From the IMG/VR virus record IMGVR_UViG_3300042565_001121, positions 1 to 29,927 of that record: a stretch of 29,927 nucleotides of DNA. One strand, given 5' to 3'. The first letter of the stretch is position 1, and every line of letters begins with the position of its first letter. Positions 2,661 through 11,788 of the stretch are shown piece by piece. Origin of the DNA: a virus. The position numbers and the translations under genes are program-made. The notes beneath the pieces are model-generated. The model saw nothing but the letters and a program-made list of their open reading frames with translations. It was not told where the DNA came from and ran no database searches.

Positions 2661-4501
2661 TGCCGGTACCGACGCTCACCGTCGAGGTGGCGTTCTCGTC
2701 GTCGCCGCTGACGGCTGCACCGGTGTGGACCGATGTGACCGCCTACGTTCGGCATTCGCCGGGCGTGCGGATCAGCCGTGGCCGCCCGAGCGAGTCGTCG
2801 ACGTTCTCGGCCGGGCAGTTGACGCTGACGCTGAACAACCGGGATCGGCGCTTCGATCCGCTGTACTCGGCCGGGCCGTATTTCGGCAACCTGACGCCAC
2901 GCAAGCAGATCCGTGTGCGTGCCACGTCGGGCTCGGTGTATGAAGTGTTCCGGGGGTTCGTGACCGGCTGGCCGACGCAGTACCCGGTCGCTGGCCGTGA
3001 TGCCGTCACGACGATCACCGCCTACGACGGCCTGGCGTTCTTGAACGAGATCACCATGCCCGACCAGGTGTATCGGTACAGCAACACCACTGTCGGCTCG
3101 TTGTTCCGGTACTTCCGCCAGGCCGACGTCACAGGCTGGTTCGATGCCAAGAACGGCGACGCGCTCTCGCTGTCGGCGGGATCGTTCGCCGAGGCGTCGT
3201 CGCCGTTGGCGGTTGGCCTGACCGGGTCGACGCCGGTGGCATTTGGCGGGTCGACGGCGTTCTCGTCGACTCGAACGACGGTCGCCAATGCGGGTAACGC
3301 TTGGTCGATCTCGTTCTGGTTGCAGACGACGACGAAGGGGCCGTCGGCGACGAACTGGATGAGCGTGCTGCACGACCCTCGCGCCATCACTTACAACGTT
3401 CGCATCGGCATCGACTCCGGTGGGCTGCTCAAGTTTTCAGGGTTCGACTGGATCCCCGGCTTTCGTCCGTCGGTCGAATCGACCATTAGCGTGGCCGACG
3501 GGTACACCCATCACGTCGCCATTTCCTGCTCATCGGGCGGCACGCCCACGCTCTACATCGACGGCGTGAACCGCTCGGCTACACAGGTGACGGCATCGAC
3601 ATATACGCCCGTGCTACACGTCGGCGGCGCCGTTGCATCCGACATCCCCTTCGTCGGCACCCTGTCCGACATCGCCTACTTCACGAAGGCAGTCTCGGGT
3701 GCTGAGGCGTTGGCGATGGCACTCATCGGCGCCAACCGGTTCGGGCAGTTCTCGGTCGATCGGGTGACGACGGTGCTCGACGCCGTCGACTGGCCTGCGT
3801 CGTGGCGGTCGCTCATCTCGACGACGGCCGGCTACACCGAGGGTTACAACTCGACCGACGACACTGCGCTGAACCAGTTGCAGTTGGCGGCGGCGACCGA
3901 ACAGGGCCGCATGTTCGCGCAGAAAGACGGCAACGTCACGATTCACGGCCGGTTCTGGTCGACGAGCGACGCCCGTGGCAACACGGTGCAGGCGACGTTC
4001 GCCGACGACGGCACCGGCATCGGGTTCCAGTCGTTCGCCGGGTTCGACCCTGGCGACCGGGACGTGGTGAACGATGCGTCGGTGTCGTCGGTGTCGACGC
4101 CGCAACGGTCGCAGGACGCCACCAGCATCTCCGGCCTCGGCCAGCGGTCGACGTCGGTGACGACGGTCGCTACCGCTGAGGGCGCCAAAGCCATCGCTGA
4201 CGGCATCGTCTATCTGCGCAAGACGGCCCGCAGCCGTGCCTTGCCGATCGAGGTGTCGCTGACGGATTCGTCGACGTTCGCCACGCTGCTCGGCCTGGAA
4301 ATCGGCGACCGCTACCGGGTGAAGCTCACACCGCTGGCAGTCGGCGGGCAGATCAGCCAGGACTTGCACATCGAGTCGATCGACTGGGACATCGACCTAG
4401 CCGAGTGGCGTCTGTCGATCGGCGGCACGCCGGTGCCCGCTGCGGCATGGGCGACGGTCGGCACCACCACCGTCGGCAACACCGACGTCATCGGCTACTG
4501 A
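2660..4501 (+). CDS. Tail hub/minor tail protein with LamG-like insertion
   Basis: A 613-residue structural protein. Residues 1-155 ('WTDVTAYVRHSPGVRISRGR', 'LTLTLNNRDRRFDPL') and about 365-613 look like halves of the distal-tail/hub-type minor tail proteins of actinophages that follow the tape measure. Between them, residues about 195-350 form a concanavalin/LamG-like jelly roll: 'AWSISFWLQ' at 214-222, 'HHVAISC' and 'LYIDGV' at 284-303, and 'GTLSDIAYFTKAVSG' near 333-347. Such domains bind glycans, so this is plausibly a cell-surface contact inserted into the hub. ATG overlaps the tape measure stop (TGATG), implying translational coupling. The hub role comes from gene order; the LamG call comes from the strand motifs. 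Confidence 0.72.
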   Translation: MPVPTLTVEVAFSSSPLTAAPVWTDVTAYVRHSPGVRISRGRPSESSTFSAGQLTLTLNNRDRRFDPLYSAGPYFGNLTPRKQIRVRATSGSVYEVFRGFVTGWPTQYPVAGRDAVTTITAYDGLAFLNEITMPDQVYRYSNTTVGSLFRYFRQADVTGWFDAKNGDALSLSAGSFAEASSPLAVGLTGSTPVAFGGSTAFSSTRTTVANAGNAWSISFWLQTTTKGPSATNWMSVLHDPRAITYNVRIGIDSGGLLKFSGFDWIPGFRPSVESTISVADGYTHHVAISCSSGGTPTLYIDGVNRSATQVTASTYTPVLHVGGAVASDIPFVGTLSDIAYFTKAVSGAEALAMALIGANRFGQFSVDRVTTVLDAVDWPASWRSLISTTAGYTEGYNSTDDTALNQLQLAAATEQGRMFAQKDGNVTIHGRFWSTSDARGNTVQATFADDGTGIGFQSFAGFDPGDRDVVNDASVSSVSTPQRSQDATSISGLGQRSTSVTTVATAEGAKAIADGIVYLRKTARSRALPIEVSLTDSSTFATLLGLEIGDRYRVKLTPLAVGGQISQDLHIESIDWDIDLAEWRLSIGGTPVPAAAWATVGTTTVGNTDVIGY

Positions 4502-9550: not shown

Positions 9551-9593
9551 CGCCACGCCCCTCGCCGCAAGGCGGGGGGCTGTTGGCGTTTTC
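9551..9593 (+). terminator. Intrinsic terminator of the tail/lysis operon
   Basis: CGCCA (9551-9555) pairs with TGGCG (9584-9588), GCCCC with the G-run at 9574-9579, and CGCC (9563-9566) with GGCG (9571-9574) around a small GCAA-type loop; TTTT follows at 9589-9592. It sits 30 bases after the last gene of the rightward operon and just before attP, where it would protect the integrase from read-through. Confidence 0.75.
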
Positions 9594-9595
9594 AT

Positions 9596-9614
9596 CCCAC
9601 AATCGCCCCACAAT
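9596..9614 (+). repeat. Left pair of candidate integrase arm-type sites
   Basis: CCCACAATC at 9596-9604 and CCCACAAT at 9607-9614, 11 bases apart (about one helical turn). The same motif appears as a second pair right of the tRNA-like core, as expected for arm-type sites of a tyrosine integrase. The role is inferred from the arrangement. Confidence 0.55.
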
Positions 9615-9669
9615 TCACCAGGCACGCCGCGACGCCACCTGGCGAAATGCGGCGAGACGGAACGAGAAA

Positions 9670-9757
9670 CCCCAGGTCAGGGCACCTGTAGTGAGCTTGA
9701 CACGGTGGAGGTCTCCGGTTCGAGTCCGGCTACGCCCACCGTAAAGCCCCAGGTCAG
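9670..9757 (+). repeat. CCCCAGGTCAG direct repeats flanking the att core
   Basis: CCCCAGGTCAG occurs at 9670-9680 and 9747-9757, just outside the two ends of the tRNA-like core. These may be inner binding sites for integrase or excisionase. A third copy, extended to 16 identical bases with the left one, lies in the prim-pol gene at 21742-21757. Confidence 0.5.
9697..9740 (+). other. attP core: 3' half of tRNA-Val(GAC)
   Basis: From TTGACAC (9697-9703, an anticodon loop with GAC) the sequence reads through an anticodon 3' stem (GGTGG), a variable loop (AGGTC), a T-arm (CCGG-TTCGAGT-CCGG) and an acceptor 3' strand TACGCCC with discriminator A and CC. Upstream bases do not complete a tRNA, so this is a fragment, not a gene. 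Phage integrases commonly use such tRNA 3' ends as attB and restore the host tRNA on integration. A terminal T-C mismatch in the T-stem suggests that the phage copy differs slightly from the host or that the stem is four pairs here. Confidence 0.8.
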
Positions 9758-9801
9758 ACGGGGTGGCGAGCAGGTCGGGACGTTCGGACCTTGACCGCCA
9801 T

Positions 9802-9820
9802 CCCACAATCACCCACAATC
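9802..9820 (+). repeat. Right pair of candidate integrase arm-type sites
   Basis: CCCACAATC at 9802-9810 and again at 9812-9820, spaced 10 bases and in the same orientation as the left pair. The second copy ends 6 bases before the chosen integrase ATG, so integrase binding could also repress its own gene. Confidence 0.55.
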
Positions 9821-9826
9821 ACCGCC

Positions 9827-10909
9827 ATGACGAAGCGAGCATACGGGTCGGGCAGCAAGCGGGAGATCAGGCCGGGGGTGTGGGAGTTGCGAGCCGCCGG
9901 CCGTTCCAAGACGGTGCGAGGCTCGGCGAAGCAGGCCGAACAGGCGCTGGCGCAGATGGTCGTCGGAACCGGTGGCCGCACCGGCTCCAGCGATGCGACG
10001 CTCGCCGAGCTCGTCGAGCACTGGCTGGCGTCGGCGCGCCTCGAGGCGTCGAGCGTCGCCACCTACCGTGTCGCTCTCGCCCACCTGCCTGCCTCGCTCG
10101 GCCGCAAGCGGGTCGACAGGCTCAGCCTCGCCGACTTCGACCGTGGCTACGTCGACGCCGAGCGGGCCGGGGCCCCGGTGCATCAGGTGCACAAGTTGCA
10201 CACGGCGTTGTCATCGGCGCTGACGCAGGCGGTGCGGTGGGGGTGGATCGGTGCGCACCCGGCGCGCGGCGCACGCCTGCCGTCGCTGCCCGACCGCAAG
10301 GTGAAGCCACCGTCGGCGGCGCAGGTGCAACAGATCCTGGCCGAGGCGGCGAAGACCCTGCAGACGCACGCCTGGCTCCGTCTGGCCGTCACCACCGGTG
10401 CCCGGCGTGGCGAGGTGTTAGCACTTCGCTGGTCGGACATCGACCTCGATGCGGCGACGATGACCGTCGGCCGGTCGCTGAACGAGGACCGGACGGCCAA
10501 GGTCACGAAGACGAACCGAGTGCGGGTGGTGCGCCTCGACGCCGTCACGGTGGCGCTGCTGCGCCAGTGGCGCAACGGCCAGCGTGAGCGCGCCCTGGCG
10601 TGCGGCGCAAGGCTCGCCCGTGATCCGTTCGTCCTGTCGAACTCGCCGGATTCGTCCGTGCCGTGGCGACCCGACGGCACGACGCAACGGTTCCAGCGGC
10701 TGTGCGCCCGTGCCGGGGTGGAGGGCGTGCGGCTGCACGATCTGCGGCATGCCATGGCGTCGCAGTTGCTCGAGCGGGGCGTGTCGCCAGTGACCGTCGC
10801 CGGCCGTCTCGGCCACGCATCGACGACCACGACACTGCGCACCTACGCCCATGTCGTCAGCGGCGCCGATGCTGCTGCTGCCGACGTGATTGCCGACGTG
10901 ATCGGCTGA
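9827..10909 (+). CDS. int: Tyrosine integrase
   Basis: A 360-residue site-specific recombinase that integrates and excises the phage at the adjacent tRNA-Val att site. An arm-binding N-terminus (about 1-50) and SAM-like core-binding domain (about 55-145) precede the catalytic domain. Catalytic residues are visible: R193 in 'TGARRGE', a probable K228 in 'KTNRVR', H304 and R307 in 'HDLRH', H330 in 'LGH' and Y340 in 'LRTYAHV'. All are present, so it should be active. ATG at 9827 is preferred; TTG at 9791 would add 12 residues encoded by the arm repeats. Neither start has a strong ribosome site. The reading direction runs away from attP toward the immunity region, the usual temperate-actinophage layout. 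Confidence 0.95.
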   Translation: MTKRAYGSGSKREIRPGVWELRAAGRSKTVRGSAKQAEQALAQMVVGTGGRTGSSDATLAELVEHWLASARLEASSVATYRVALAHLPASLGRKRVDRLSLADFDRGYVDAERAGAPVHQVHKLHTALSSALTQAVRWGWIGAHPARGARLPSLPDRKVKPPSAAQVQQILAEAAKTLQTHAWLRLAVTTGARRGEVLALRWSDIDLDAATMTVGRSLNEDRTAKVTKTNRVRVVRLDAVTVALLRQWRNGQRERALACGARLARDPFVLSNSPDSSVPWRPDGTTQRFQRLCARAGVEGVRLHDLRHAMASQLLERGVSPVTVAGRLGHASTTTTLRTYAHVVSGADAAAADVIADVIG

Positions 10910-10910
10910 G

Positions 10911-10924
10911 TGTCGCGCGCGACA
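10911..10924. repeat. Perfect 14-bp palindrome after int
   Basis: TGTCGCGCGCGACA is fully self-complementary and begins 2 bases after the integrase stop. It could be a protein-binding site, or with the next hairpin part of the bidirectional end of the convergent int and repressor transcripts. Confidence 0.45.
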
Positions 10925-10935
10925 TGCGCGGCATG

Positions 10936-10963
10936 GCCTGACATGGTGGTCATGTCGTGAGGC
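10936..10963. terminator. Hairpin between convergent int and repressor genes
   Basis: GCCT-GACATG, loop GTGGT, CATGTC-(GTG bulge)-AGGC. The 10-bp stem lies between two converging genes, where a bidirectional terminator is expected. No T-tract is present on either side, so the terminator call is tentative. Confidence 0.4.
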
Positions 10964-10993
10964 ACGATCGCCAGGCATGGACAGAGGATCAGC

Positions 10994-11004
10994 GGGGGGG
11001 GGGG
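10994..11004 (+). repeat. G11 homopolymer
   Basis: Eleven consecutive G bases in the non-coding gap between int and the repressor's 3' end. Such a tract is prone to slippage in replication and to sequencing error, so its exact length should not be trusted. No gene crosses it. Confidence 0.7.
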
Positions 11005-11055
11005 CGTCTAGCGCGCACCCCCGGGTTACGGTGCGTCAGATGACGACCGACGACA

Positions 11056-11406
11056 TCACTGCGGCGATTGCTGCGACTCAGGTGCTGCTCGACGAGCTGC
11101 ATCTTCGAGTCGGGCGACTTGAGCAGTCAGCGCCACGATCTGTTCCGTCATCGACGCCAGAGCCGCCATCACCTGATCGTCTCGCTGGCTGACGACCGGC
11201 GGGGCCGGTGGGTTCTCGGGCCAGTCGAGCGGCCAGTCGAACGCCTGGGCGACGATCTCGCGCGTGTTCGCAGCACGGCGGTCCTCGCCACGCTCGATGC
11301 GATCCCACTGCGAGTGCGACGTGCCGCCCGCTTCGCCCGCCCGGCGCATCGACCAACCACGCCGTAAGCGCTCGTTTCGCACGATCTCGCCCTGTTCTGT
11401 GTTCAC
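11056..11406 (-). CDS. Immunity repressor candidate (XRE-type HTH)
   Basis: A 116-residue protein on the only leftward gene. Residues 6-50 form a Cro/CI-type HTH ('IVRNERLRRGWSMRRAGEA', then 'SHSQWDRIERGE'), followed by a Trp/Pro linker and a predicted C-terminal coiled coil ('MTEQIVALTAQVARLEDAA', about 85-103) for dimerisation. There is no LexA-like peptidase domain, so induction cannot go through self-cleavage. The start is GTG at 11406: the only ribosome-site candidate is absent, and a -10 box lies 7 bases upstream, so the mRNA is probably leaderless. TGGGCC-type inverted repeats overlap its promoter, allowing autoregulation. A Cro-like role is the alternative. Confidence 0.75.
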   Translation of the reverse strand: MNTEQGEIVRNERLRRGWSMRRAGEAGGTSHSQWDRIERGEDRRAANTREIVAQAFDWPLDWPENPPAPPVVSQRDDQVMAALASMTEQIVALTAQVARLEDAARRAAPESQQSPQ

Positions 11407-11422
11407 GGGGCCATTATGGGCC
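11407..11422. promoter_or_regulatory. Operator O1 over the leftward -10
   Basis: GGGGCCATTATGGGCC, an imperfect inverted repeat of the TGGGCC-type half-site found in O2 and O3. It covers the leftward -10 box and predicted start, so binding would shut off the repressor gene. Confidence 0.5.
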
Positions 11423-11441
11423 GTCTGAGTGTCTGAATCAA
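11413..11441 (-). promoter_or_regulatory. Leftward repressor promoter (leaderless)
   Basis: On the minus strand: TTGATT (complement of 11436-11441), 17-base spacer, CATAAT (complement of 11413-11418), then 6 bases to the repressor GTG. The predicted +1 falls on the start codon, with no ribosome site in between. Leaderless transcripts are common in actinobacteria. Confidence 0.65.
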
Positions 11442-11443
11442 AG

Positions 11444-11457
11444 GTGCCATAGGTCCC
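11444..11457. promoter_or_regulatory. Degenerate operator-like site
   Basis: GTGCCATAGGTCCC matches the O2 core GGGCCATTCGGCCC at 10 of 14 positions. It is weaker than the other three sites and may be a low-affinity operator or chance. Confidence 0.3.
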
Positions 11458-11466
11458 TAGTCCATA

Positions 11467-11482
11467 TGGGCCATTCGGCCCA
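11467..11482. promoter_or_regulatory. Operator O2
   Basis: TGGGCCATTCGGCCCA: perfect 6-bp arms around ATTC, lying between the divergent promoters about 26 bases upstream of the leftward -35 and 19 bases before the rightward -35. Confidence 0.6.
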
Positions 11483-11500
11483 GAACGGAACACTTTCGCC

Positions 11501-11529
11501 TTGACAGGTTGGGCCACATGGCCCATTGT
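11501..11529 (+). promoter_or_regulatory. Rightward early promoter
   Basis: Consensus TTGACA (11501-11506), 17-base spacer, CATTGT (11524-11529, keeping the key A2 and T6). It drives the excisionase-like gene and probably the long early operon. The predicted +1 is at or one base before GTG 11537, so this transcript may also be leaderless. O3 fills the spacer and touches the -10. Confidence 0.7.
11510..11525. promoter_or_regulatory. Operator O3 inside the rightward promoter
   Basis: TGGGCCACATGGCCCA: perfect 7-bp arms around CA. It occupies the spacer and first -10 bases of the rightward promoter, so a bound repressor would block early transcription. It is the best-formed member of the operator set. 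Confidence 0.65.
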
Positions 11530-11536
11530 GTCTCTC

Positions 11537-11788
11537 GTGGGGAACACACACACCGGAGGGGCTGACGCTCTGACCGTCATCGTCCAGGCCGACACCGCCA
11601 TCGTGGTCGGCGCCGCAGAGGCAGCCAAACGGCTGAACACGTCCGAGCAGCGGGTGCGCGAGTTCGTGCGGGCCGGGCTGCTGGCCACCGTGCCGCACCT
11701 GTCGACCGACGCCAAGTTGGCGATCGCCGTTCGCGAGCTCGAGCGGTTCGCCGCTCAGGGCACGACCCTGCGGGCGGTGGCGTCGTGA
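11537..11788 (+). CDS. Excisionase/MerR-like HTH protein
   Basis: An 83-residue protein with one winged-helix HTH of the excisionase/HTH_17 kind: 'GAAEAAKRLNTSEQRVREFV' then 'RAGLLATV' at about residues 25-52, plus a C-terminal helix. As the first gene of the rightward early operon it is placed like Cro or excisionase and could direct excision or control early genes. GTG at 11537 fits a leaderless message. The alternative is a rare CTG at 11570, which has GGAGGG 9 bases upstream and would remove 11 residues. It overlaps the next gene by 4 bases. Confidence 0.6.
   Translation: MGNTHTGGADALTVIVQADTAIVVGAAEAAKRLNTSEQRVREFVRAGLLATVPHLSTDAKLAIAVRELERFAAQGTTLRAVAS

Follow-up and report, generated by a model that had tools for sequence, protein, structure and literature searches.

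The window, the whole stretch of DNA analysed, is a complete phage record of IMG/VR, 29,927 bases in length. Encodes terminase, portal, primase-helicase, exonucleases and tyrosine integrase. The host is likely actinobacterial, because the terminase matches mainly actinobacteriophages (best match about 39% identical, Arthrobacter phage BaileyBlu). The lysogeny region carries the integrase gene int, a leftward gene for a putative immunity repressor (rep) and a rightward gene for an excisionase-like protein (xis), with promoters and palindromes between the latter two (Table 1). A tRNA-like 3′ half upstream of int suggests, by its sequence, integration into a host tRNA gene; because only half of a tRNA is present, no tRNA or Rfam call was obtained at that position. 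The 42-nt tRNA half, sought as attB with at most one mismatch, was absent from 398 genomes of one phylum. In the species genomes searched no relative of rep was found, and integrase relatives were only about 30% identical.

Table 1. Features of the lysogeny region, with positions in the window; +1 positions are predicted.
Feature	Position	Strand	Description
Candidate attP core	9697..9740	+	tRNA-like 3′ half, tRNA-Val-like: GAC anticodon region, T arm, acceptor 3′ strand; upstream of int, conserved in relatives
Pint	9791..9819	+	TTGACC-17-CACAAT, 7 nt, ATG 9827; third promoter of leaderless geometry; conserved in L048-L050
int	9827..10909	+	Tyrosine integrase, 360 aa; ATG 9827; Pfam Phage_integrase 5.7e-25, PHROG integrase 8e-63
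rep	11056..11406	-	Putative immunity repressor, 116 aa; GTG start at 11406; XRE/HTH_31-type N-terminus, C-terminal helix 73-107
O1	11408..11422	.	Imperfect candidate operator over the Prep -10, GGGCCA-TTA-TGGGCC
Prep	11413..11441	-	TTGATT (11441-11436), 17, CATAAT (11418-11413), 6 nt, GTG 11406-11404; predicted +1 is the G of GTG 11406
O2	11467..11482	.	Perfect palindrome between the promoters, TGGGCC-ATTC-GGCCCA; centre about 62 bp upstream of PR +1, 68 bp upstream of Prep +1
PR	11501..11529	+	TTGACA (11501-11506), 17, CATTGT (11524-11529), 7 nt, GTG 11537-11539; predicted +1 11537 (or 11536)
O3	11510..11525	.	Perfect palindrome in the PR spacer and over the first two -10 bases, TGGGCC-ACAT-GGCCCA
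xis	11537..11788	+	Excisionase/MerR-like wHTH protein (Xis), 83 aa; GTG at predicted +1
GGAGGGG	11555..11561	+	Possible Shine-Dalgarno for a CTG start at 11570; inside the xis frame, kept in all relatives seen
Temperate cassette	9594..11500	.	attP-int-rep-O1-O2

Rep and Xis are both assigned weakly, below the Pfam cut-offs. Rep matches Pfam HTH_31 at E 4e-5, yet below the curated cut-off, and PHROG transcriptional regulators at E about 1e-3. An AlphaFold model built on three sequences gives the HTH helices and one long C-terminal helix, with pLDDT 78-91 in the better part of that helix and an overall mean of only 67 (moderate). Homologues in L002-L004 are 61-63% identical and align from residue 1. 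The preliminary description had given the repressor no cleavage domain, and this is borne out: the protein is short, it ends in the long helix, and no Pfam or PHROG match to an S24/LexA-type C-terminal peptidase domain was obtained. It is reasonable to suppose that a non-RecA-type induction signal would be needed for the switch. Xis matches Pfam HTH_17 at E 1e-4 and, weakly, phrog_66 'excisionase and transcriptional regulator' at E 0.0025; its predicted structure is poor (mean pLDDT 53). The 83-aa excisionase-like protein may also be a lytic repressor.

Prep and PR are divergent and stand back to back, and the sequence from either promoter to its GTG holds no Shine-Dalgarno. The predicted +1 had been placed on the GTG for the leftward promoter, and at or one base from the GTG for the rightward one; both promoters were found as claimed, with the gaps of 6 and 7 nt. 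A strict scan of the 30 kb (TTG in the -35, A2 and T6 in the -10, spacer 16-19, score at least 9/12) returned only three sites, namely Prep, PR and Pint. Each of them is followed, after 6-7 nt, by an RTG with which an ORF of 83-360 aa begins. The background rate of an ORF of at least 60 aa starting in the four-base slot is 0.079 per site at a random position, so that three of three would arise by chance in about 5 of 10,000 cases, if the sites are independent. Relaxing the -10 rule brings in two further window sites of 9/12, at 9697 and 12802, neither of which has the leaderless geometry. Applied to the window and related phages together, the relaxed rule gives 12 distinct sites of at least 9/12, with an RTG at offset 6 or 7 in 7/12, whereas the remaining offsets between 0 and 40 together account for four RTGs; because the sequences are related, these sites count as roughly four independent promoters (those of int and rep, PR, and an additional one in L067). 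In L067, at 3175-3210 and in a second downstream copy, two small genes show the leaderless geometry behind near-identical promoters (TTGACA or TTGACG, 17, TTAGAT, 6 nt, ATG). Prep of the relatives reads TTGCAC-17-CATAAT or CATACT-GGCAAC-GTG, with spacing and the 6 nt to GTG unchanged. The distance from the PR -10 to the GTG is 7-8 nt in the versions of L005, L073, L067 and L075, despite altered spacers. Changes in the discriminators of the relatives likewise leave the start-codon distances of Prep and PR as they are. Most likely, judging from this geometry, the mRNAs of rep, xis and int each have the first base of the RTG start codon as their 5′ end.

The exact palindrome TGGGCC-N4-GGCCCA occurs twice in the 30-kb window, as O2 and O3 only, against 0.015 expected. 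O2 and O3 are spaced by 43 bp, about four helical turns. O1 departs from the inner form GGGCCA-N2-TGGCCC by one mismatch and one extra central base; sites as good (gap 0-4) occur in 0.4% of random 136-bp stretches. A fourth candidate site at 11444-11457 is weak, with 3 mismatches. Three to four TGGGCC-type repeats with O3 perfect and O1 imperfect, as noted earlier, are thus correctly counted, the fourth being the weak one. Their placing over both -10 regions and between them holds for O1, on the Prep -10, and for O2, between the promoters; O3 touches the PR -10 only at its edge. Differences in symmetry suggest that operator affinity may be graded.

Three contigs (L005-L007) have the same gene order, two of them near-identical in this region; the relatives compared are few and closely linked. 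Identity to the window is 98% for Int, about 100% for Xis and 61-63% for Rep, about 57-60% for the intergenic DNA, and about 57-77% at the DNA level for rep plus the intergenic segment. The divergent block lies between near-identical int and xis and breaks off at the xis GTG. PR of the relatives reads TTGACG-17-TTGAGT, 8 nt, GTG, with a poor -10 (TTGAGT). The exact operator TGGGCC-N4-GGCCCA is absent in L005-L007, whose operators do not form clean palindromes; this class of operator is thus seen in a single phage. The presumed recognition helix reads HSQWDRIE in the window and HTWWDLVE in the relatives; its residues and the operator sequence differ together. Such a pattern is as expected if rep and the operators form an exchangeable immunity cassette.

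Five further contigs were brought in by an exonuclease-based search. The records L073, L076, L074, L075 and L067, which may be fragments, hold neither int nor rep. The temperate cassette is missing as one block from L073-L076, and PR almost directly adjoins the hairpin that ends at window position 9593. L073 and L076 carry the window-type PR with -35 and -10 intact and the left half of O3 changed from TGGGCC to AGGGTC (AGGGTC-GCAT-GGCCCA; e.g. L073:5050-5115). L074 and L075 carry the L005-type PR, its -35 and -10 likewise kept, with the operator half-site changed from GGCC to GGCT. Escape from repression and neutral decay would both fit these changes in sisters devoid of the repressor. The xis body is missing from L073-L076, but the first 18-20 codons or so (window 11537-11590) are kept, and some of these phages have them joined in frame with the ORF that follows. 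The retained codons could form a leader peptide or a 5′ leader with its own role. The hairpin, at window 9561-9593, is GC-rich, followed by a T-run (CTCGCCGCAAGGCGGGG...GTTTTC), lies just before the cassette and is common to the cassette-less sisters. It is likely a terminator, and the exchange probably has its left edge there.

Taken as a whole, the immunity switch is rather probably an ordinary repressor switch with leaderless mRNAs, in a temperate actinophage-like virus. Divergent promoters, leaderless geometry on both sides and an operator set had been proposed for it, and sequence and relatives support all of these. For its working (Rep binding, cooperativity, autoregulation, any role of Xis at Prep, transcript 5′ ends) the following course is inferred. 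In the lysogen, Rep dimers (HTH and C-terminal helix) would bind O3 inside PR and O2, probably cooperatively, and PR would be shut off. The weaker O1, on the -10 of Prep, would let abundant Rep curb its own production. Under lytic conditions PR would drive the excisionase-like wHTH protein and early genes; this protein would act early in lytic growth or excision and may also repress Prep. The switch would in this respect operate in the manner of lambda, PY54 and BPs.

The palindromes might instead be used by the Xis/Cro-like protein or by a host factor. Apl of phage 186 and similar excisionases likewise act between early promoters (PMC7498355), and O1 could be viewed as a pair of GGGCC half-sites that point the same way at a distance of 10 bp, an Apl-type arrangement. 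Against this, RDF sites are direct repeats (PMC7498355), perfect dyads fit a dimeric HTH repressor, and in L005-L007 Xis is identical yet O2 and O3 are not kept, while Rep differs. Divergent Rep and operators beside a conserved Xis link the palindromes more closely with Rep than with Xis. Their use by another protein is held quite improbable. The start of xis allows more latitude. A PR transcript start near 11537 is well supported, and GTG 11537 and CTG 11570 share one reading frame in a stretch conserved in all relatives. Only rep (and int) might be leaderless, with the PR transcript from about 11537 carrying a 33-nt leader in which GGAGGGG leads to CTG 11570 or to a codon further along in that frame. 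A later start is allowed by the long N-terminal extension before the HTH (residues 1-22 precede the HTH core and are predicted disordered or with low confidence) and by the conserved GGAGGGG, which together with the surrounding 25 nt is identical in all relatives, even those without the xis body. CTG is, however, rare as a start codon, a mycobacterial mRNA beginning with GTG is always translated from that GTG (PMC4633059), and the promoter-to-GTG distance is fixed at 7-8 nt across several PR versions, which a leadered mRNA would not need. A leadered xis is accordingly held unlikely, and initiation at GTG 11537 is preferred.

The preliminary description had further expected leaderlessness to make the switch responsive to ribosome changes, an expectation that finds no support here, as both opposing mRNAs and that of int have the same geometry. 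A lysis-lysogeny choice that depends on stress-modified 70S initiation could draw on the leaderless geometry of rep and xis (and int), and on an M. tuberculosis leaderless reporter that proved robust during growth and, under some stresses, was sustained better than the Shine-Dalgarno one (PMC8485053). A property common to two opposing genes gives no net bias, however: with rep, xis and int alike, altered 70S initiation would, to a first approximation, shift them in step without tipping the balance. Leaderless initiation is also routine in mycobacteria: about one transcript in four has no leader, and during ordinary growth these are translated equally well as those with a leader (PMC4633059). 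The conserved geometry is also general for the phage group. Because it is a general promoter style of the group, leaderlessness is read as a shared initiation mode and not as a special sensor. A switch that reads the ribosome is thus regarded as extremely improbable. It is very doubtful, too, that int, rep and xis are leaderless as a matched set coupling lysis-lysogeny to 5′-RTG translation (e.g. by GTG versus ATG efficiency or stress-altered ribosomes). By analogy with the M. tuberculosis reporter, a mild effect of stress on leaderless translation is possible.

An HTH repressor gene and a lytic DNA-binding gene diverge from a candidate operator region, as in cI/cro-like switches, and a -10 about 6-8 nt before an RTG, with no Shine-Dalgarno, is that of a leaderless gene pair of actinobacterial type. 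PY54 (and lambda) cI/cro is alike in its divergent repressor and lytic genes and 16-bp palindromic operator. The locus differs from it in a different, shorter repressor without cleavage domain, a first lytic gene that resembles an excisionase in place of Cro, GTG as start codon and a probably actinobacterial host. In PY54 the cI and cro mRNAs both begin at AUG by RACE (PMC4488713), so the double-leaderless design is not new. Mycobacteriophage BPs has a small HTH repressor (103 aa in the active form), divergent Prep and PR, a 12-bp palindromic operator between the PR -10 and -35 and, where Prep starts, another site that is degenerate (PMC4557955). The window shares the small HTH repressor, the divergent promoters, the candidate operator in the PR spacer and the poorer site at Prep. 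BPs carries attP within its repressor gene and has a degradation tag (integration-dependent immunity), whereas the window has its candidate attP upstream of int and a rep that it does not interrupt. With the candidate attP outside the rep frame, the switch does not appear, on the evidence seen, to be of the BPs integration-dependent class. P2/186 C(CI)-Cox/Apl is alike in an excisionase-like first lytic gene, and 186 Apl is both excisionase and regulator (PMC7498355). Its promoters are face to face and those of the window back to back; the switch is not of the face-to-face P2/186 class.

The switch is real and conserved, but its kind is already known in other phages, and translational sensing is not established by it. 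It provides a clean example of an exchangeable immunity cassette bounded at a leaderless start codon, in an uncultured, probably actinobacterial phage group. Since the cassette boundary lies at the leaderless start and natural sisters that lost the cassette carry a changed operator, the operator assignment and the leaderless rule are easy to test.

Several candidate features were set aside. The conserved block 11438-11465, considered as a Xis site, was not significant against shuffled columns (permutation p 0.34). A search for the two-operator pattern elsewhere in IMG/VR gave six matches. On inspection their sequences resembled repetitive DNA, in part collagen-like coding or tandem repeats, rather than immunity regions. 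The palindrome O3 itself accounts for the terminator-like call at 11510-11525, which is situated upstream of the predicted +1. An Rfam rpsB match at 11491-11605 is below threshold (22 vs 40 bits) and was taken as chance.
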